Shown piece by piece: positions 1-9,375 of a stretch of DNA of 64,000 nucleotides. The DNA is taken from NCBI GenBank assembly GCA_015654695.1, contig JAATGJ010000033.1:19202-83201 (forward strand), read 5' to 3'. Numbering within the stretch: position 1 is the stretch's first letter; each line of letters starts with the position of its first letter. The position numbers and the translations under genes were made by a program. The notes beneath the pieces were generated by a model. That model searched no databases. It saw only the letters and a list, made by a program, of their open reading frames with translations, and was not told the DNA's origin. Origin of the DNA: Chitinophagales bacterium. Lineage in GTDB: Bacteria; Bacteroidota; Bacteroidia; Chitinophagales; Chitinophagaceae.

Positions 1-3000
1 GTTACGAGCCTGTCTTTCCTGTATGCACTGACAATAGCTGTATTACTGGTATATGGTTTATTGTACTACAGGGATTTTGTACGGTCAGCATGGCATCGTA
101 AACGTTTTCCTGTTGTTTTCCTGATCATTACTGCAGCCTGTTTAGGATTTCTATGGATAAACATTCATGCGCCATTGAAGTTGCATACATTCAGCAACCT
201 TGATCATCACTTTATCAGGCATGACGGTTTTAGCGTAAACGGCAGCATAGAGATGGGAAGATCGGATACAGTAAATTTTACCAATAATTCTTTCAGCAGT
301 TTTGTGTTATCAAAAAAGAAGGGTGAAGTAGCGGTAACGTCCGGTTACTCTGAAGAACCCTTTTACCTGAATGACGGAGCTGTGTATAAATTAGCATCGA
401 AGATATATCCGGTTGCCGGTCATTCTTTTTCCTGTAAGGTTGACGCTGTTTCCGTCATTGTTAAAGTGATAGCAGATAATAGTTTTGAATTGTCTTTGAA
501 TGGCCAGGTGTTTAAAACAGAAAAACCCATTAAAAAAGGTATTGCTTCCTGGAATATTTTTAAGGATGAAAACACTTTTATCAATTCTCCCTACTACAAT
601 AATGAAAAGCTCATCAATACACTCAGGCATTTGCTGATCATACGAAATGATGTTTCACGACAGGGAGCGGGAGAATTAAATTATTTTATATCAGGACGCT
701 TATTTCAATTTGTGGACAAGGCCGCCTATGATCAGCAGGCCGTTCACGCAAATGATTTGCGTTTTACCGCAACTATCCCTGATAACAGTGGTATTGCCTG
801 GGGCATTGGTTTTTTAGATAATAATAAAAATCAGTTTCGTCTGAACTATGCAGGCAATGATAGTTTTTCGGTATTCAACCGCTTTCCTGTTTCTTACCCG
901 CTGGCCGAAGAGAAAAGCACTGACTGGTCGCAACATACTGTCAGCAAGTTCCTGCTGTCTGATTCAAAAGACATGCTGAGTATGCCGCCTGTTTTTAAAG
1001 AAGGTTTTTTGTTTTCAGCATTTGAGCAGGATAATACGCTGGACTTTGCGCCGGTATTATTGACCTACCAGAAAGAAGCTGAAAATAAACCACTTCAATT
1101 AAAAGCGCAATGGTTGAATAAATCTTCTTCTTTTATTGATAGCAAGAATGATCAGTTTCTTCTTCCCGCCCGTTCTGCAGGTTTTAGCTGGATATTTTCT
1201 ATTCGTAATACTTTCAACTGGGAATTTGGAAGTGGAGTAATGACACCCGCTATGTGGCAGGGATTTTTATTCGGAAGTTTGATTTTCTTTTTTGTACTGG
1301 TGGTTTTTACTTCCCTAGTAACGCCGGCGGGTAAATTAAGCTGGGTCTGGCAATTGTTATCTTCCGTATCTATCGTATTGCTGACTACCCGTTTGTTTCT
1401 TTACTGGCGCTATAAGAGCTTTCCTCCCTTTGAAGGAATGGATATTCCATCCCAGCAGCAATTGCTAAGCTTCTGGAATTTCGGCATTATCATTTTCGCT
1501 ATTATTATTCTTGCCGTCTTTTTTGGTTTTGGTTTTCTTAAATATGCATGGTCATTCATTCGTAAAAAAGCATCGGGAATAATGAAGACTTCCGGAGGCA
1601 AGCATAATAATGCCGCTTTACCGCTTTATGAAAAGATCAGTACTTATATACAGGGATTGAAGATCGTAAAACGGTATGGTAGTAAACCAGTGTTTTTTGC
1701 CAGTTGGGTTCTTATACTTATTGCCGCAGCCGGTCTTGCTTTTGCCCGGCATTTTGATCCGGGTACATGCAGGCATTTAGCCATCGGACTGATGATCATC
1801 TATTTCCTGTATGTATTTATTGCCTATCGTCATTCACCATTGGTAGTGCCTGCGGAAAAAAGCTGGTGGAGAATCAATACCGGGAAAGGAGCGGATATTA
1901 TTATCAGTAATCCCGTGAAAGTATTGTTGTCAATAAGCCTGCTCGCTATTTTTGTTTTTATTGATATCGGGTTTGCCATTGTATTCCTGAATTTTCTTTT
2001 ATTTAATGAAGCATTTCTTTGCATCAATTATGCCATCGCTGGTTTATCTGCAGGCAGCAGGCGTAATGCCACTTTATTTGGTGTTGCGGGGTTTATTTAT
2101 TTATCAGCTTTCATAGTAAATCTTTTATATGCTCCCTATATTTTCAGGGCATTGCTCAATTTGCCACAATCACTATATGTGGCCGCTTACATTTTCTTTT
2201 CCATTCTCATTGCATATAATATTACAAGGTTTCTTACCGGCTTTACACCAAAAAAGAAGTTGCTGACAGGTTCCGCCATAACTGTTTTGTTTTTTGTTGT
2301 AGCTTTCTTTTTCTTTCCTAAAGAAAAGATCATTGAGAAAGCATCTATGACAAAATACAGGATAGATGTACTGACCATGCCTGTTGATAAAGCTATTGAA
2401 TCAGCTTACGGGGAAGGCAAAACGTATGAGCCGGTAATAAGGGCTGCCCAAAACCAGTGGTTCATTAATACGTTGATTGACGAGGAAAATAATCCGGGTG
2501 TTCAATCAATGGGTTTTCACCTGCTTCCCCACGCACCGCAAAACAAAGGGGCCAAGTACAATGCCCAGGCAACAGATCTTGTCGCCAGTCGTTTCTTTCT
2601 GGCCGAACATGGGAAATGGTCTGTGTTATTGTATGTTCTTTTATTGATACTGCCTACTACCATGCTGGCTTCATTTTATAAATTGTATCCTGACTTTACC
2701 AACAGGACCAATACAGGGTATCCTGTCATTACCGCGGGTTTTTCTATATTGAATTATTTACTTGTAACAGCATTACTGGTGATCCTCGCTGCCACGGGAC
2801 GATATATATTTTTCGGGCAGGATATGCCATTCGGAAGTATTTTAAGCAAGCAATCCATTTTGTTTCCTTCCATTCTGATCGTTATAGCTGTTCTGTTGTT
2901 TAAAAACATTTCACAGGAATATTATGCTAACAGGAAGAAACTGATCCCTGGTGTTATCGTATTTTCATTATTAGGTGTTTTATTGTTTTTTGTAAAACCA

Positions 3001-5256
3001 GTCTTTAACAGGAACAAAGAGTTTAATGTGACAGACCTGGCAAACGGAATGGATAATTTTATCCAGTTGCGGTTACAACCCGTCCTTGATCATTTTGATA
3101 CCAGTGTTGCTACCCGAAAATATTCTATAGCAAAAAAAGACCAGCTATTTACTGATTCCGTTCGCCGGCTGGTCGCTGCTGGTTCATTTGATGATGCGAA
3201 TAAATTTTTTGCAAAGGAAATTGAAAATTATACACGCCTGGATTTTTCCCGTCACCTCGATCAGGGCCGCATGTTATACCTTGACCTGTACTCCGGTAAA
3301 CCGCAGCTGGCCGTCAACGATAATTATTTCCGCATTGAACCGCCGCCTCACCTGCAACAATCATGGACGGGAAATGTGTTCAGCGATTCTACGGCGTATA
3401 ATATTTCCCTTTTGAACAGCAAAGACGGGTCTGTTATAAATAAAAGAGTAACGGGCTTTACCAACGAGCCTGATATCTCATTAACCAGTGACCTTGGTTT
3501 ATCCTTCAGGTCACCGGGATCAACTAATATGTATAAATATTTATACCTGGTCAATAAGGGAAATACAGGCTTAACTTTAAAATATAACAGCCAGGAAAAA
3601 GTATTGGAGCATAATGATAGCCTGAGAATAGCTAACCCATCTCGGATCATGATTGCTGATTTGACTAACATGAACGAAAGGTGGCTTGTAGCAGAACCCG
3701 ATGCGCTTATGAAGAATTATTATGTAAATGGCAGCCGGTTTTATGTTTACCCGATGGCCAGCCGTTTTATCTGGGCAAGAAATTTTGCCGAAAGTATCGC
3801 TTCTGAATATACTTCGGCCAGGCAAACCACGGCTAACGCCTCTGTTTCTTTTGATGTTGAAATGATGGATTCTCTTTCATTAAAGATTCAACGAATGATG
3901 AACAGGGATACTGCGTATAAGAAAGGGGCTGAGTATGGAATCTGTATTGCTGATGGTAATGGCCGGCTGATTGCCATGACTGATTTCATCAAAGGTCTTA
4001 TACGTCCTGATCCTAATGATAAAGCGGGGTTTACTAAAACGATCATGGGTGAAAATGGTTTTATCTCCCAATCATTGCTGAGAAAGCAGATCGGTAATAT
4101 TAATTTGCTCCGGATGAACCCGGGTCCGGGTTCCACATTAAAGCCCATAGTGTTTTCTGCTATCGCCTCACAATTAAATCTTGACTGGGATGCTTTTGCC
4201 GCCGAAGGTTTTTCTGAACCGCAGCAATATTTTGGCGGGCAAAAAGTAGCGGAATATGATTTTGAAAAAAACAATGGACGTATAGGAAGCGTAGCGGATT
4301 ATTTAAAGTATTCGGATAATTATTATCATTCCAATGTATTGTTGCTCGGTTCTTATCCTAAACAGGATTTGAATAAATTGTTAGCAACATCTTTTGTTCA
4401 AACTAATCCCGGTGCTGGTTTGCACTGGCCTTATTTTAGTTACGGGGGCTCACAATACTGGCTGAATGGTTTTGATAACTGGCCGGGCTACGCAAATGGT
4501 AAAGTGAATTTCGGAATGGATAGTTCATTTACTTCTATCGGGCTTTTTAGTAATTATGGCATTTATAATCATACAGCGGATAAAAGCTTTGATATGTTTT
4601 CTTCTTCGTATGATTCATCGCTGTTTCTGAATGCGTATAACCGGTCAGGATTTATTTTGCCCGAGTATGCTTTATTCGATCAGCAGGGTAATACTATTGA
4701 CAAAAGAATTCCTTACGATGTATTCGCCAGTTGCTTCCGTGGGCATGTAAAAGGCAGCAGCCAGGTATTGATACCTCCTACGAAGATGACAGAAGCGTTT
4801 GGAAAAATACTCAGCCAGAACAGGAATTACTCACTTACGCTGAATCCCTATGCTAAAGAAGCGGATCGTATGCCTTTTGCAACAGATAATACTATTGTCT
4901 ATAACAATTATCTTTCGTTGATGCGGGAAGGTGTGTTCACGGGGATGAAGGAAGTTTTATACTCCGGGACTGCTGCGGTATTGGGTGGTTTAATGAAAAA
5001 AGAGCCGGGCTATTATTATTATGCAAAAACCGGAACTACGGGAGATAATGAAGCTAAAACCAAATCCAAGCTGCTGGCATTTATCATATCTGAAAAAGAT
5101 GTAACTGACCCGGGTTTTAATTTCAGGAATAATAAGTTCTATACCATTTATTTCACTATGCAGAACGGACCGGCTAAACAGAATGAAGAATTTCAAAAGG
5201 AGATCATCAGGTATATTGAGCAGTCGCGTTCGTTTAAGCGCTATATGGGCAAATAA
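1..5256 (+). CDS. SEDS-like / penicillin-binding transpeptidase fusion (5' partial)
   Basis: The frame is open from base 1 and encodes a hydrophobic segment before the first possible start (TTG at 61), so the gene begins outside the window; at least 1751 codons are present. A large extracytoplasmic domain (about bases 200-1240) is followed by many membrane segments (about 1250-3000). Inside these, a stretch around 2440-2640 reads like the SEDS (FtsW/RodA) loop ending in TDxxxS..AE.GKW, and one around 2770-2930 like the last SEDS helices. The C-terminal third is a penicillin-binding transpeptidase: SxxK (STLK) at 4132-4143, SDN at 4312-4320 and KTGT at 5026-5037, in normal order. The transpeptidase call is firm; the SEDS call rests on pattern similarity. 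Expected role: peptidoglycan polymerisation and cross-linking at the inner membrane. The closest known arrangement is separate FtsW/FtsI or RodA/PBP2 partners. Confidence 0.8.
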   Translation, partial: VTSLSFLYALTIAVLLVYGLLYYRDFVRSAWHRKRFPVVFLIITAACLGFLWINIHAPLKLHTFSNLDHHFIRHDGFSVNGSIEMGRSDTVNFTNNSFSSFVLSKKKGEVAVTSGYSEEPFYLNDGAVYKLASKIYPVAGHSFSCKVDAVSVIVKVIADNSFELSLNGQVFKTEKPIKKGIASWNIFKDENTFINSPYYNNEKLINTLRHLLIIRNDVSRQGAGELNYFISGRLFQFVDKAAYDQQAVHANDLRFTATIPDNSGIAWGIGFLDNNKNQFRLNYAGNDSFSVFNRFPVSYPLAEEKSTDWSQHTVSKFLLSDSKDMLSMPPVFKEGFLFSAFEQDNTLDFAPVLLTYQKEAENKPLQLKAQWLNKSSSFIDSKNDQFLLPARSAGFSWIFSIRNTFNWEFGSGVMTPAMWQGFLFGSLIFFFVLVVFTSLVTPAGKLSWVWQLLSSVSIVLLTTRLFLYWRYKSFPPFEGMDIPSQQQLLSFWNFGIIIFAIIILAVFFGFGFLKYAWSFIRKKASGIMKTSGGKHNNAALPLYEKISTYIQGLKIVKRYGSKPVFFASWVLILIAAAGLAFARHFDPGTCRHLAIGLMIIYFLYVFIAYRHSPLVVPAEKSWWRINTGKGADIIISNPVKVLLSISLLAIFVFIDIGFAIVFLNFLLFNEAFLCINYAIAGLSAGSRRNATLFGVAGFIYLSAFIVNLLYAPYIFRALLNLPQSLYVAAYIFFSILIAYNITRFLTGFTPKKKLLTGSAITVLFFVVAFFFFPKEKIIEKASMTKYRIDVLTMPVDKAIESAYGEGKTYEPVIRAAQNQWFINTLIDEENNPGVQSMGFHLLPHAPQNKGAKYNAQATDLVASRFFLAEHGKWSVLLYVLLLILPTTMLASFYKLYPDFTNRTNTGYPVITAGFSILNYLLVTALLVILAATGRYIFFGQDMPFGSILSKQSILFPSILIVIAVLLFKNISQEYYANRKKLIPGVIVFSLLGVLLFFVKPVFNRNKEFNVTDLANGMDNFIQLRLQPVLDHFDTSVATRKYSIAKKDQLFTDSVRRLVAAGSFDDANKFFAKEIENYTRLDFSRHLDQGRMLYLDLYSGKPQLAVNDNYFRIEPPPHLQQSWTGNVFSDSTAYNISLLNSKDGSVINKRVTGFTNEPDISLTSDLGLSFRSPGSTNMYKYLYLVNKGNTGLTLKYNSQEKVLEHNDSLRIANPSRIMIADLTNMNERWLVAEPDALMKNYYVNGSRFYVYPMASRFIWARNFAESIASEYTSARQTTANASVSFDVEMMDSLSLKIQRMMNRDTAYKKGAEYGICIADGNGRLIAMTDFIKGLIRPDPNDKAGFTKTIMGENGFISQSLLRKQIGNINLLRMNPGPGSTLKPIVFSAIASQLNLDWDAFAAEGFSEPQQYFGGQKVAEYDFEKNNGRIGSVADYLKYSDNYYHSNVLLLGSYPKQDLNKLLATSFVQTNPGAGLHWPYFSYGGSQYWLNGFDNWPGYANGKVNFGMDSSFTSIGLFSNYGIYNHTADKSFDMFSSSYDSSLFLNAYNRSGFILPEYALFDQQGNTIDKRIPYDVFASCFRGHVKGSSQVLIPPTKMTEAFGKILSQNRNYSLTLNPYAKEADRMPFATDNTIVYNNYLSLMREGVFTGMKEVLYSGTAAVLGGLMKKEPGYYYYAKTGTTGDNEAKTKSKLLAFIISEKDVTDPGFNFRNNKFYTIYFTMQNGPAKQNEEFQKEIIRYIEQSRSFKRYMGK

Positions 5257-5899: not shown

Positions 5900-6412
5900 T
5901 TAGTTGGCAGGTTTCGGAGCTTCAGCGGCTATTACTTCACCGGTGATCTGAACTACTTTTTCCTGTGTAATGCCCGCAAGCTTAATATGTACATCTTTTG
6001 TAAAAGCTCCTGCATTGGCAGCATTATACTGCACTTTCAATTTAGCGCTGGCACCCGGAGCAATGGGTTCTACAATTTTTTCAGGTGTAGTGCAACCACA
6101 ACTTGCGTAAGAGTTTTCTACAACAACAGGTCTGCTGCTGGTATTTTTAATTTCAAAGGCATACGTAACAGGAGTGCCCTGTTTTATTTTTCCAAAATCA
6201 TATTTAATGGTATTGATCTTTATCACATCATCAGGGGAAGGTTGCCCAACGGTAGTGGCAGTTGTTGCTTGCACCGGAGCTGTTTGAGCGGCAGTGGGTT
6301 TAACCTTGGTTACATTTGCCTTTTGGGTAGCAGGCTGTTTCTTTACATTTAACTGCGCCATAGCGCTAACTGTAATAACAAAAGCGGCTGTGAATAATAC
6401 TATCTTCTTCAT
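5900..6412 (-). CDS. DUF1573 secreted protein
   Basis: A 170-residue exported protein. Residues 1-20 form a signal peptide ending AMAQ. A Thr/Pro/Ala/Gln-rich linker follows (about 20-60). The DUF1573 domain (about 65-160) carries the family hallmarks: D-F-G-x-I near its start, FEIKNT, the SCGCT motif and a P-I-A-P-G turn. DUF1573 domains have an Ig-like (ASH/MSP) fold and are common in Bacteroidota envelopes; no reaction is known. It lies 12 bases downstream of a second DUF1573 gene, so the two form an operon ended by the hairpin at 5854. Confidence 0.9.
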   Translation of the reverse strand: MKKIVLFTAAFVITVSAMAQLNVKKQPATQKANVTKVKPTAAQTAPVQATTATTVGQPSPDDVIKINTIKYDFGKIKQGTPVTYAFEIKNTSSRPVVVENSYASCGCTTPEKIVEPIAPGASAKLKVQYNAANAGAFTKDVHIKLAGITQEKVVQITGEVIAAEAPKPAN

Positions 6413-6424
6413 GATTTTTATTTT

Positions 6425-6868
6425 TTAAAGTGTTTGTTTTTTAAGAAATTGAACAGAAGCATTGGCAGGGGCCGCACCTTCAGGGGCTTTCCATACTGTG
6501 CCTTTGATCTTTAGTTGTTTGGATAGAGTACTGTTATTGTAAGCGATATTAATTACTTTTTCAAAAACGCCTTCCGCTGCAGCATTATATCCTACTTTGA
6601 TCTGGGCTGTCGCACCGGGGGCAATAGGTTCGCGGCTCCATTCAGGAGTAGTGCACCCGCAACTGGCATGTACATCGTCCAGCTTCAAAGCCGTTGTTCC
6701 TGTATTGACGATCTCGAATGTATAATACACAGGTTTTCCCTGTGGGATCTTTGCGAAGTCGTGTTCGGTTTCTTTTAATTTCAGCGCATCCGGTGATTCA
6801 GTGGTGGTTTGTGCGCCGGCAAAAAAGAAGGACGCAAGCAATACGGATAGGAAAAGGCATCTTCTCAT
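6425..6868 (-). CDS. DUF1573 secreted protein (first of tandem pair)
   Basis: Start placed at the ATG at 6868 (147 aa), because it opens a clean signal peptide (MRRC... ending AGAQ). The open frame continues upstream to 7030, but that part overlaps the divergent E1 gene and covers this gene's promoter. The DUF1573 domain has HDFAKI, FEIVNTG, ASCGCT and IAPG motifs like its neighbour. It is probably a tandem duplicate of the gene at 5900. Function unknown, cell envelope. Confidence 0.88.
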   Translation of the reverse strand: MRRCLFLSVLLASFFFAGAQTTTESPDALKLKETEHDFAKIPQGKPVYYTFEIVNTGTTALKLDDVHASCGCTTPEWSREPIAPGATAQIKVGYNAAAEGVFEKVINIAYNNSTLSKQLKIKGTVWKAPEGAAPANASVQFLKKQTL

Positions 6869-6889
6869 AAATGAATGAATTGAAGGATT

Positions 6890-6919
6890 CAAAAGTAGTC
6901 CAAAGATGGCAGATTTCAA
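6890..6919 (-). promoter_or_regulatory. Bacteroidota promoter TTG-N19-TACTTTTG
   Basis: On the minus strand a TTG (6917-6919) is separated by exactly 19 bases from TACTTTTG (6890-6897), matching the Bacteroidota -33/-7 consensus TTG/TAnnTTTG. The box ends 21 bases before the ATG at 6868, which supports that start. Confidence 0.75.
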
Positions 6920-6978
6920 ACATTGGTTGCAGGCCGGGGTGGGGATTTTTTGCAAATATTTAATGTATTGTTTCTCCC

Positions 6979-6986
6979 TATTTTTG
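6979..6986 (+). promoter_or_regulatory. -7 box TATTTTTG for E1 gene
   Basis: Perfect TAnnTTTG match ending only 4 bases before the ATG at 6991. No TTG lies at the usual spacing (nearest suitable one 26 bases away). A transcript from here would start at or very near 6991, so either the mRNA is leaderless or the ATG at 7006 is used. Confidence 0.6.
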
Positions 6987-6990
6987 CTAC

Positions 6991-9375
6991 ATGCAAAATT
7001 CAACGATGCCCGCGGAATCAAAATTGTCATTTGACAAGTTCAGGGAAGAGGTGTTGAATGATTACCGCACTGCCTGTATTAGCCGGGAAGCCAGTCTTTT
7101 AGGCCGTAAGGAAGTATTGACCGGTAAAGCCAAATTTGGCATTTTTGGAGATGGTAAAGAATTGCCGCAGGTAGCCATGGCCAAATTTTTTAAGCCAGGG
7201 GATTTTTACAGCGGATATTACCGCGACCAGACTCTTGCCTTTGCTACAGGTACCGCTACTATCCGGGAATTTTTTGCACAGCTCTATGCTGATCCCGATA
7301 CAACACATGATCCGCACAGCGGCGGACGGCAGATGAACTCACATTTCGCTACTCCATTTGTTGATGAGAATGGAAATTTTTTGGATCTCGTTAACCGCAA
7401 AAATCTTGCTGCGGGTATGGCGCCAACAGCTGCACAAATGCCCAAAGCACTTGGCCTCGCGCTGGCATCAAAAGCGTTTCGGAATGTAAAAGAACTCCAT
7501 CAATTTGACTCATTATCGGACAAAGGCAATGAAGTTTGTTTTTGTACCATTGGTGATGCGTCCACCAGTGAAGGACATTTCTGGGAAACAGTAAATGCAG
7601 CCGCAGTGCAGCAGGTGCCGCTGGCTTTTTTTATATGGGATGACGGCTATGGTATTTCCGTCCCTAAAAAATTCCAGACCACCAAGGGGTCAATATCAGA
7701 AGCATTGAAAGGCTTTCAAAAAAATGGAGATGATACTGGCCTGGATATCTACAGGGTGAAAGCCTGGGACTATGCCGGTATGTGTGAAGTATTTGAAGCA
7801 GGCATTCAAAGGATTCGGGATACACATACCCCGGCGCTTTTTCATGTAGAAGAAGTGACACAACCGCAGGGACATTCTACTTCCGGCAGTCATGAACGTT
7901 ACAAAAAACCTGAGCGGTTAGACTGGGAAAGGGAATGGGATTGTATTAAGAAATTAAAAGAATGGATCATTGAAAATACACTGGCGGAAGAAGAGGAGTT
8001 AGGGGACATCGAAAACGCAGCCAAAGAATTTGTTCGGGAAAGTAAGAATGCTGCCTGGGAAGACTACCTTGTTCCTATCAGGAAGCAAATAGAACGTACA
8101 AAAGAACTTTCACTGGGTATTGCCAGCTCATTGCCGCAGCATGCACCGGCTATTCAAAAATTGGTGACTGAACTGACATCCAACCGAGAGCCTAACAGAA
8201 AAGATATTCTGCAAACATTGCACTATGTATTGCTTCATGCCGGGAAAAATGACGCGGCCTTCTGGGCGAAAGATTATTATAATGACCTGGTTAAAGAAAA
8301 CAGGTCATTGTATAATTCCTGTCTTTATAATGAAGGACCCCAGGCTACATTGAAAGTAAATGAAGTAAAAGTATCTTACGCTAAGGATGCGCTGCTTATA
8401 AACGGTTACGAATTGCTGAATAAATATTTTGATGAATTATTCAGTAAAAATCCGAAAGTGCTGGCCTTTGGTGAAGACCTTGGTTTCATTGGAGATGTGA
8501 ACCAGGGTTTTGCCGGTTTGCAGGCAAAACATGGAGCCAATAGAATTTTTGATACGGGTATCAGGGAGTTAAGCATCATGGGGCAGGGTATAGGCATGGC
8601 ATTGCGCGGCCTTCGCCCTATTGCCGAGATACAATACCTGGATTATTTATTATACGGGTTACAACCTTTAAGTGATGACCTGGCTACCATGCATTTCAGA
8701 ACAGTAGGTAAGCAAAGCGCACCCATGATCGTCCGTACAAGAGGCCACCGTTTAGAAGGTATCTGGCATAGCGGATCACCGATGGGGATGATCATCAACT
8801 CGCTTCGCGGTATGCATATATGTGTACCACGTAATATGACACAGGCGGCAGGTATGTACAATACATTGCTTCGCGGAATGGACCCGGGTTTGGTAATTGA
8901 ATGTTTGAATGGTTACCGCTTGAAAGAAAAACTACCTTCTAACCTGGTTGAGTTTACGGTACCGCTTGGTGTGCCGGAAGTGATCAGGGAAGGAAATGAT
9001 ATTACCATTGTTTCTTATGGCTCCGTTCTTCGTATTATTAATGAAGTAGCAATCACATTGGAAGCAGAAGGCGTCAGTTGTGAAATTATAGATGTACAAA
9101 CATTATTGCCATTTGATATTCATCATAAAATTCTTGACTCTCTCAAAAAGACCAGCCGTATTGTATTTATTGATGAAGATGTTCCCGGGGGCGCAGCAGC
9201 CTATATGTACAATAAAGTAATGGAAGAGCAGGGTGGGTATAAATACCTGGATGTGGCGCCCCGAACCATTACGGGCAAGGCTCATCGCCCCGGTTATGGA
9301 AGCGATGGCGATTATTTCGGCAAACCCAATGCTGAAGAGATCGGGACAGTAATCAGGGAAATGATGGCGGAATAG
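6991..9375 (+). CDS. 2-oxoacid dehydrogenase E1, fused alpha-beta subunits
   Basis: A 794-residue thiamine-diphosphate enzyme with E1-alpha (about 15-380) and E1-beta (about 440-790) in one chain, as in many Bacteroidota. The alpha part has the diphosphate/Mg-binding motif GDAsTSEG followed by DDGYGISVP. The beta part has the GEDLGFIGDV entry, the GIGMALRG helix and the IVSYGS...D.QTLLPFD C-terminal domain. It decarboxylates 2-oxoacids and passes the acyl group to an E2 lipoamide subunit; E2 and E3 are not in the window. The branched-chain (2-oxoisovalerate) type is the usual name for this fusion, but substrate cannot be read from sequence. Start 6991 is next to a -7 box; 7006 is the alternative. 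Confidence 0.92.
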   Translation: MQNSTMPAESKLSFDKFREEVLNDYRTACISREASLLGRKEVLTGKAKFGIFGDGKELPQVAMAKFFKPGDFYSGYYRDQTLAFATGTATIREFFAQLYADPDTTHDPHSGGRQMNSHFATPFVDENGNFLDLVNRKNLAAGMAPTAAQMPKALGLALASKAFRNVKELHQFDSLSDKGNEVCFCTIGDASTSEGHFWETVNAAAVQQVPLAFFIWDDGYGISVPKKFQTTKGSISEALKGFQKNGDDTGLDIYRVKAWDYAGMCEVFEAGIQRIRDTHTPALFHVEEVTQPQGHSTSGSHERYKKPERLDWEREWDCIKKLKEWIIENTLAEEEELGDIENAAKEFVRESKNAAWEDYLVPIRKQIERTKELSLGIASSLPQHAPAIQKLVTELTSNREPNRKDILQTLHYVLLHAGKNDAAFWAKDYYNDLVKENRSLYNSCLYNEGPQATLKVNEVKVSYAKDALLINGYELLNKYFDELFSKNPKVLAFGEDLGFIGDVNQGFAGLQAKHGANRIFDTGIRELSIMGQGIGMALRGLRPIAEIQYLDYLLYGLQPLSDDLATMHFRTVGKQSAPMIVRTRGHRLEGIWHSGSPMGMIINSLRGMHICVPRNMTQAAGMYNTLLRGMDPGLVIECLNGYRLKEKLPSNLVEFTVPLGVPEVIREGNDITIVSYGSVLRIINEVAITLEAEGVSCEIIDVQTLLPFDIHHKILDSLKKTSRIVFIDEDVPGGAAAYMYNKVMEEQGGYKYLDVAPRTITGKAHRPGYGSDGDYFGKPNAEEIGTVIREMMAE

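Follow-up and report, generated by a model that had tools for sequence, protein, structure and literature searches.

A predicted class B transpeptidase joined to a likely SEDS-type membrane module, encoded near a predicted actin-like ATPase gene in a Chitinophagales bacterium

The stretch of DNA analyzed in this work (the window) comprises 64,000 nucleotides of contig JAATGJ010000033.1 of a Chitinophagales bacterium (family Chitinophagaceae, assembly GCA_015654695.1), corresponding to contig bases 19202-83201 within a 5.4 Mb draft genome, and it begins inside a large plus-strand gene that we refer to as D. The D frame is stop-free across window bases 1-5256, and the fetched contig (locus L004) places its ATG at L004:10191, 12 bases to the left of the window; the whole gene (L004:10191-15458) encodes a protein of 1,755 residues. 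Only the first four of them (MLRI) lie outside the window, which thus covers practically all of the N-terminal region; the 5' end, which the preliminary description of this DNA had left to the neighbouring contig, has been recovered with the addition of four residues. Upstream of D, and on the same strand, lie the genes A (277 residues, L004:5879-6712), B (793 residues, L004:6808-9189) and C (326 residues, L004:9202-10182). Since gaps of 12 and 8 bases separate B from C and C from D, the four genes look like one operon; its actin-like part, discussed below, had escaped the preliminary description because it lies outside the window.

The C-terminal half of D is firmly supported as a class B penicillin-binding transpeptidase, as predicted from its motifs and from the structural model. 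A single helix (residues 982-1001, window 2932..2991; hydropathy and model) bears the penicillin-binding part, and it is followed by a region delimited through structure alignments (residues 1009-1284, 3013..3840) and by the transpeptidase domain (residues 1285-1755, 3841..5253; alignment, model and fold search). In the model, the transpeptidase fold is preceded by an N-terminal pedestal located after the single membrane helix; the pedestal-like part begins at about residue 1113-1127, the first hundred residues falling outside the structure alignments, and the VIA alignments with full-length class B proteins start at model residues 558-572. The three catalytic motifs, whose completeness had been claimed beforehand, were located as STLK (residues 1382-1385, window 4132-4143), SDN (1442-1444, 4312-4320) and KTGT (1680-1683, 5026-5037). 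Their conservation was assessed on a family alignment of 50 non-redundant relatives, kept from 145 aligned after five shorter proteins had been excluded, in which the distant members share 21-25% identity with the D protein of the window. S1382/K1385, S1442/N1444 and K1680-T-G-T, that is SxxK, SxN and KTG in this order, are invariant in 50/50 relatives. The invariance of the catalytic-type residues of D across these relatives argues that they did not arise by chance. The profile searches proposed in the preliminary description were negative for the window's D: the Transpeptidase family (PF00905) reached 15.9 bits, below the cut-off of 22.1, and the result for FtsW_RodA_SpoVE (PF01098) is weighed below. 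PF00905 matched 11 of the 25 D members scanned (E up to 10), one distant member (locus L048) exceeding the cut-off with 25.9 bits; among the D relatives listed, a precomputed Pfam domain, again PF00905, is found only on P0016. In NCBIfam, two distant members weakly match PBP2/MrdA (E 0.0021 and 0.012), far below the cut-off.

The membrane part that precedes this half (residues 452-972, window 1342..2904) is likely a SEDS-type polymerase, judging from its sequence, with ten core helices (an assignment suggested by models and profile alignments) and an extra helical hairpin at residues 727-775. Hydropathy and two models place helices before the catalytic loop at about residues 452-477, 495-532, 565-586, 591-614, 642-658, 660-688, 691-723, 727-746 and 754-775, and after this long loop at 877-896, 911-935 and 955-972, followed by the helix 982-1001. 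SEDS proteins have ten core membrane helices, with the catalytic loop between the seventh and the eighth. Hydropathy counts of the helices between landmarks differ among the 25 members scanned, and additional hydrophobic segments, located between loop 3 and the catalytic Asp, are likewise present in the RodA-type protein of the host itself. The loop resembling the fourth extracellular loop (ECL4) of SEDS proteins (T862-D863 ... E873, window 2572..2607), whose presence had been correctly anticipated, has the sequence TDLVASRFFLAE; Asp863 (codon 2575-2577) and Glu873 (codon 2605-2607) are matched in 50/50 members, at identities down to about 21%, and in the profile alignments Asp863 aligns to the catalytic SEDS Asp. 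An ECL3-like D-x-G (residues 659-661, 1963..1971) is nearly invariant, and Arg791, located in a short helix a little beyond the one preceding the catalytic loop (2359..2361), is invariant together with Asn822, Trp824, Gln860, Gly943, Asp945, Pro947 and Ser953, the last four belonging to an ECL5-like motif, G943-x-D945-x-P947-x-x-S950-x-x-S953 (2815..2847). In the RodA of E. coli, Asp262 is catalytic, and a simulation suggests that Arg210, in a periplasmic helix, grips the lipid pyrophosphate (excerpt of PMC10449877). The best local alignments of D to two Bacteroidota FtsW/RodA profiles (14 and 32 sequences) keep the catalytic Asp in register over 115 columns (E 0.0016) and 102 columns (E 0.0046), respectively; these scores were reached by 0/400 column shuffles and dropped to 16-21 with reversed profiles, which is suggestive of a SEDS relationship. 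The assignment is based, therefore, on the invariant Asp and Glu, the order of the motifs, the helix count and these weak, in-register profile-profile alignments.

The N-terminal module comprises two membrane helices (residues 8-32 and 40-59, window 1..165; AlphaFold2 secondary structure and hydropathy), a beta-rich domain about 360 residues long (60-419, 166..1245; model and PDB fold search) and a third helix that ends it (420-444, 1246..1320; model and hydropathy). Residues 5-564 were modelled well (mean pLDDT, predicted local distance difference test, 87.7), and the domain, which lies between membrane helices, would by its topology be periplasmic. The single open frame with an additional extracytoplasmic domain that the preliminary description had put forward is thus upheld, with the topology predicted. 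No confident or usable fold match for this domain was obtained in the PDB; from its position, one may guess that it acts as a sensor or an activator.

As for the upstream genes, B had no match to a Pfam family at E 1, and yet the motifs DFGSEASQ, D-x-GKGTTD-x-S and L-x-GR-x-F, which we take to be phosphate-1, phosphate-2 and adenosine motifs, are invariant in 18/18 rows of its alignment. In hhalign comparisons all three align in order to those of MreB (best E 0.00071), the outer two being weak when taken alone (E 0.061 and 0.048), and the first two align to DnaK (best E 0.00022); the best scores against either profile were reached by 0/60 shuffles. Hence, B is very likely an ATPase of the actin/Hsp70 type, as far as sequence comparison can predict. 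In nearly all the members of the close group it ends (L004:9150-9189) with a hydrophobic tail, GILQFFQF or similar, placed after lysines, which might possibly anchor it to the membrane or to a partner. C was judged by eye to begin with a signal-like segment and to have one more helix and a coiled coil that is cytoplasmic, and A has one helix. Among the matches listed (120 of 207 and 20/20 for D, 120 of 348 for B), none is functionally named.

The association of these genes is conserved. Of 20 close loci with named genome records, 19 have B and C immediately upstream of D and 17 have A, the absences being due to contig ends; in eight distant loci (22-29% identity), belonging to Chitinophagaceae, Persicitalea, Bacteroidales, Saprospirales and unspecified Bacteroidetes, B is upstream of D in six, and the other two contigs start at D. 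Among the named strains with the operon are Terrimonas pollutisoli H1YJ31 (L032) and Persicitalea jodogahamensis KCTC 12866 (L048), neither of which is known as a pathogen. Neighbours were counted in 17 loci, i.e. 16 of the 20 close ones (four short ones excluded) plus that of the window: A-D are complete in all 17, DUF1573-type genes occur in 15 (in L037 on the opposite side), and two further neighbours, named by eye, are a dehydrogenase-like gene (14 loci) and an aminotransferase-like gene (13 loci). The constancy of the neighbours in 13-15 of the 17 loci suggests an inherited place rather than a mobile island. Within the family, D was found in 14/147 genomes and 9/100 genera, and B in 15/147, namely the 14 with D, on the same contig, and genome G084, where D is split. 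All 14 D-bearing genomes have at least two separate PF01098 genes (one in G137 being a contig-end fragment), and the host genome of the window has, elsewhere, a strong MreB match, five other transpeptidase matches and two FtsW/RodA-type genes. The maintenance of these ordinary genes indicates that the D system is additional to the standard wall machinery.

In G084 the operon is present and D is divided into adjacent open reading frames of 595 and 1,188 residues (L175:5314-10671, minus strand), the division point corresponding to the linker between the second and third SEDS-like helices. The longer frame has five helices before the catalytic loop and three after it, without the hairpin 727-775; adding the last two helices of the shorter frame gives ten, the number typical of SEDS proteins, with the D-x-G between the fifth and the sixth; the fit of the helix count is clearest in this orthologue. 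As its ECL5-like motif is degraded, this split form may function differently.

Some further features of these loci can be mentioned. In the window, a tandem pair of DUF1573-type proteins (one of them scanned) is encoded beside the operon on the minus strand (5900-7030). In Persicitalea, the product of the gene before D has a caspase domain and Sel1 repeats (L047:5394-6680, L048:4747-7023), and the B genes (L047:1106-4099, L048:1064-4036) have an extra N-terminal stretch which, in the scanned L048 protein, resembles a Swt1-like HEPN domain, below the cut-off. In the distant group, D is directly followed by the gene for a small protein that has a single helix at its N-terminus, recognized by place and by eye (L046:13002-13439; also L045, L047, L048, L051, L175, L176 and L177). 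Its counterpart in L049 (12747-13775) is the beginning of a larger protein, 342 residues long, that bears a transglutaminase-like domain. The close group showed no gene of this kind after D.

On the whole, we consider it fairly probable that D is a one-chain peptidoglycan synthase, in which a predicted class B cross-linker is joined to a likely SEDS polymerase, and that it is steered by the predicted actin-like ATPase of the same operon. According to this model, the SEDS module would polymerize lipid II at the periplasmic face of the membrane via Asp863, as its invariance and place suggest, and the nascent strand would be handed over to the pedestal and the transpeptidase carried by the next helix, where Ser1382, one of the catalytic residues observed, would cross-link it. 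The beta-rich domain might work within D as a sensor or activator, in a way that somewhat recalls MreC in the Rod complex. Filaments of B near the membrane would guide D, and the coiled-coil protein C, with its one helix, would possibly serve as adaptor, a role consistent with the linkage and co-occurrence of the genes. Two interactions of MreB are described for E. coli, one with the tail of RodA and the other with the cytoplasmic region of PBP2 (excerpt of PMC13327600). In the predicted topology of D, the counterparts of these two pieces would be united in one short cytoplasmic loop (residues 973-981). Since D would join both the pieces contacted by MreB, the operon can be read as a natural compact analogue of a minimal RodA-PBP2/MreB machine, and the D system might represent a third, accessory wall machine beside the host's ordinary FtsW/RodA-type genes.

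A number of observations weigh against this interpretation, and most of them concern the membrane part. PF01098 matched 0 of the 25 D members at E up to 10, HMMER filters already dropping most weak hits; the HHsuite probability of the SEDS alignments, obtained in single comparisons, is 16% or less; the N-terminal half of the membrane part was misaligned by profile comparison, and the block around D-x-G alone gave no alignment. Moreover, a RodA-only profile scored 19.6, versus 26.4 for O-antigen ligases and 20.4 for MurJ-type flippases, and its score was matched by 34/60 shuffles with the profile of the 22 distant members and by 22/60 with that of all 25; the SEDS score was reached by 0/60 and 1/60 shuffles, respectively. 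The fold search list was filled by penicillin-binding proteins and barely covered this part, and the membrane part of one distant member matches an oligosaccharyl transferase model (TIGR04154, E 0.0022), far below the cut-off. It might be, then, that this part of D belongs with the O-antigen ligases and polymerases, as a Wzy/WaaL-like GT-C enzyme, and that the fusion couples a surface glycan other than lipid II to cross-linking. We regard this as distinctly unlikely. The Wzy_C profiles do come near to SEDS in some comparisons (besides the 26.4 reported above, 24.5 with the 22 distant members and 27.3 versus 26.1 with all 25), and an excerpt of PMC10449877 likens the catalytic Asp262 of RodA to His338 of WaaL and mentions a common GT-C element; nevertheless, when the hairpin and the cytoplasmic linker were left out, a post hoc choice with no shuffle control, O-antigen ligases fell to 19.1, SEDS stayed at about 32 and the RodA-only profile gave 24.6 over 146 columns, the second-best alignment (E 0.22) setting the D-x-G of the family onto the SEDS loop-3 motif. 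In addition, two loops, that with Asp/Glu and that with G-x-x-x-P-x-x-S, resemble those of SEDS proteins, and the SEDS-then-PBP order is the same as in a recognizable SEDS-PBP fusion (L085, see below). The same weak or negative scores, together with the degraded ECL5-like motif of G084, are also what one would expect if the helices, as a SEDS relic devoid of catalysis or as an anchor of other origin, only placed or regulated a large membrane-anchored transpeptidase. This appears rather unlikely, given that none of the 50 members departs from Asp863, Glu873, Arg791, Gly943 or Pro947 and that all these residues would face the periplasm, a conservation superfluous for a mere anchor. Of the SEDS-PBP fusion originally proposed, the transpeptidase half stands firmly, and the SEDS half is likely on indirect grounds.

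The interaction of B, C and D is suggested by gene order only, which is a further point against the proposed machine, and the operon might have a quite different task, that is, a defence or cell-suicide system hitting the cell wall upon attack. The patchy distribution in the family, the caspase-domain gene of the two Persicitalea loci, the HEPN-like match of B in L048 and the restriction-modification-like genes (by eye) adjoining that locus would fit this idea; set against it, PADLOC gave no match for the four proteins A-D, and the stable neighbourhood of the close loci is unlike that of a mobile island. We consider it quite improbable, and the one-chain synthase remains our preferred explanation.

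How does this putative synthase compare with known systems? Like the Rod complex (RodA-PBP2, MreB, MreC, MreD and RodZ), it would couple a glycan polymerase and a class B PBP to an actin-like ATPase. Unlike it, however, the polymerase and the cross-linker would be in one chain, and B, with its 793 residues and no Pfam match, is not MreB, which the host encodes elsewhere along with its PBPs. Among the four proteins of the operon Pfam detected no MreC, MreD or RodZ, and thus the system, although it may operate in a similar way, does not belong to the Rod complex. B shares with MreB the order of the three motifs, and with DnaK that of the first two; it is about twice as long as MreB and differs from both in its lack of a Pfam match and in its hydrophobic tail. 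The divisome also combines a SEDS protein and a class B PBP (FtsW-FtsI) with an actin-like protein (FtsA), from which B differs in lacking any Pfam match. FtsW and FtsI are separate chains and depend on FtsZ. Natural SEDS-PBP fusions have already been mentioned in print, an excerpt of PMC10449877 citing a Rhodococcus genome paper for them. One such fusion was found in this work in a Bacteroidota genome (G158; L085:1838-5500, minus strand), a 1,221-residue protein whose SEDS part is preceded by a carboxypeptidase-regulatory-like domain. As in D, the SEDS part precedes the class B PBP in one frame, and a domain and helices come before it; in contrast to D, which has neither family above the cut-off and shares its operon with an actin-like gene, this protein strongly matches PF01098 and PF00905 and adjoins an FHA gene with an FhaA-type N-terminus. 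These cases weaken the earlier claim that a covalent SEDS-PBP protein would be notable in itself. What is new, compared with the known fusions, is the divergence of D, its built-in N-terminal module and its private actin-like partner, and no paper on the D operon was present among the literature matches listed.

The coupling between actin filaments and wall synthesis is still under investigation in systems where the proteins are separate, and a direct contact of MreB with RodA-PBP2 was described in a paper of May 2026 (excerpt of PMC13327600). If the interpretation proposed here is true, D with its own actin and its adaptor would offer a compact, one-chain model both for actin coupling and for the hand-over of the strand between active sites. 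D also illustrates a route by which a penicillin-binding family escapes annotation. Lastly, and more tentatively, at somewhat less than an even chance, the D operon might add to the elongasome and the divisome a third wall assembly line, in which an unnamed actin of the Bacteroidota would drive a covalent polymerase-cross-linker provided with a periplasmic sensor, i.e. a one-chain minimal elongasome that would have evolved apart from MreB-RodA-PBP2.
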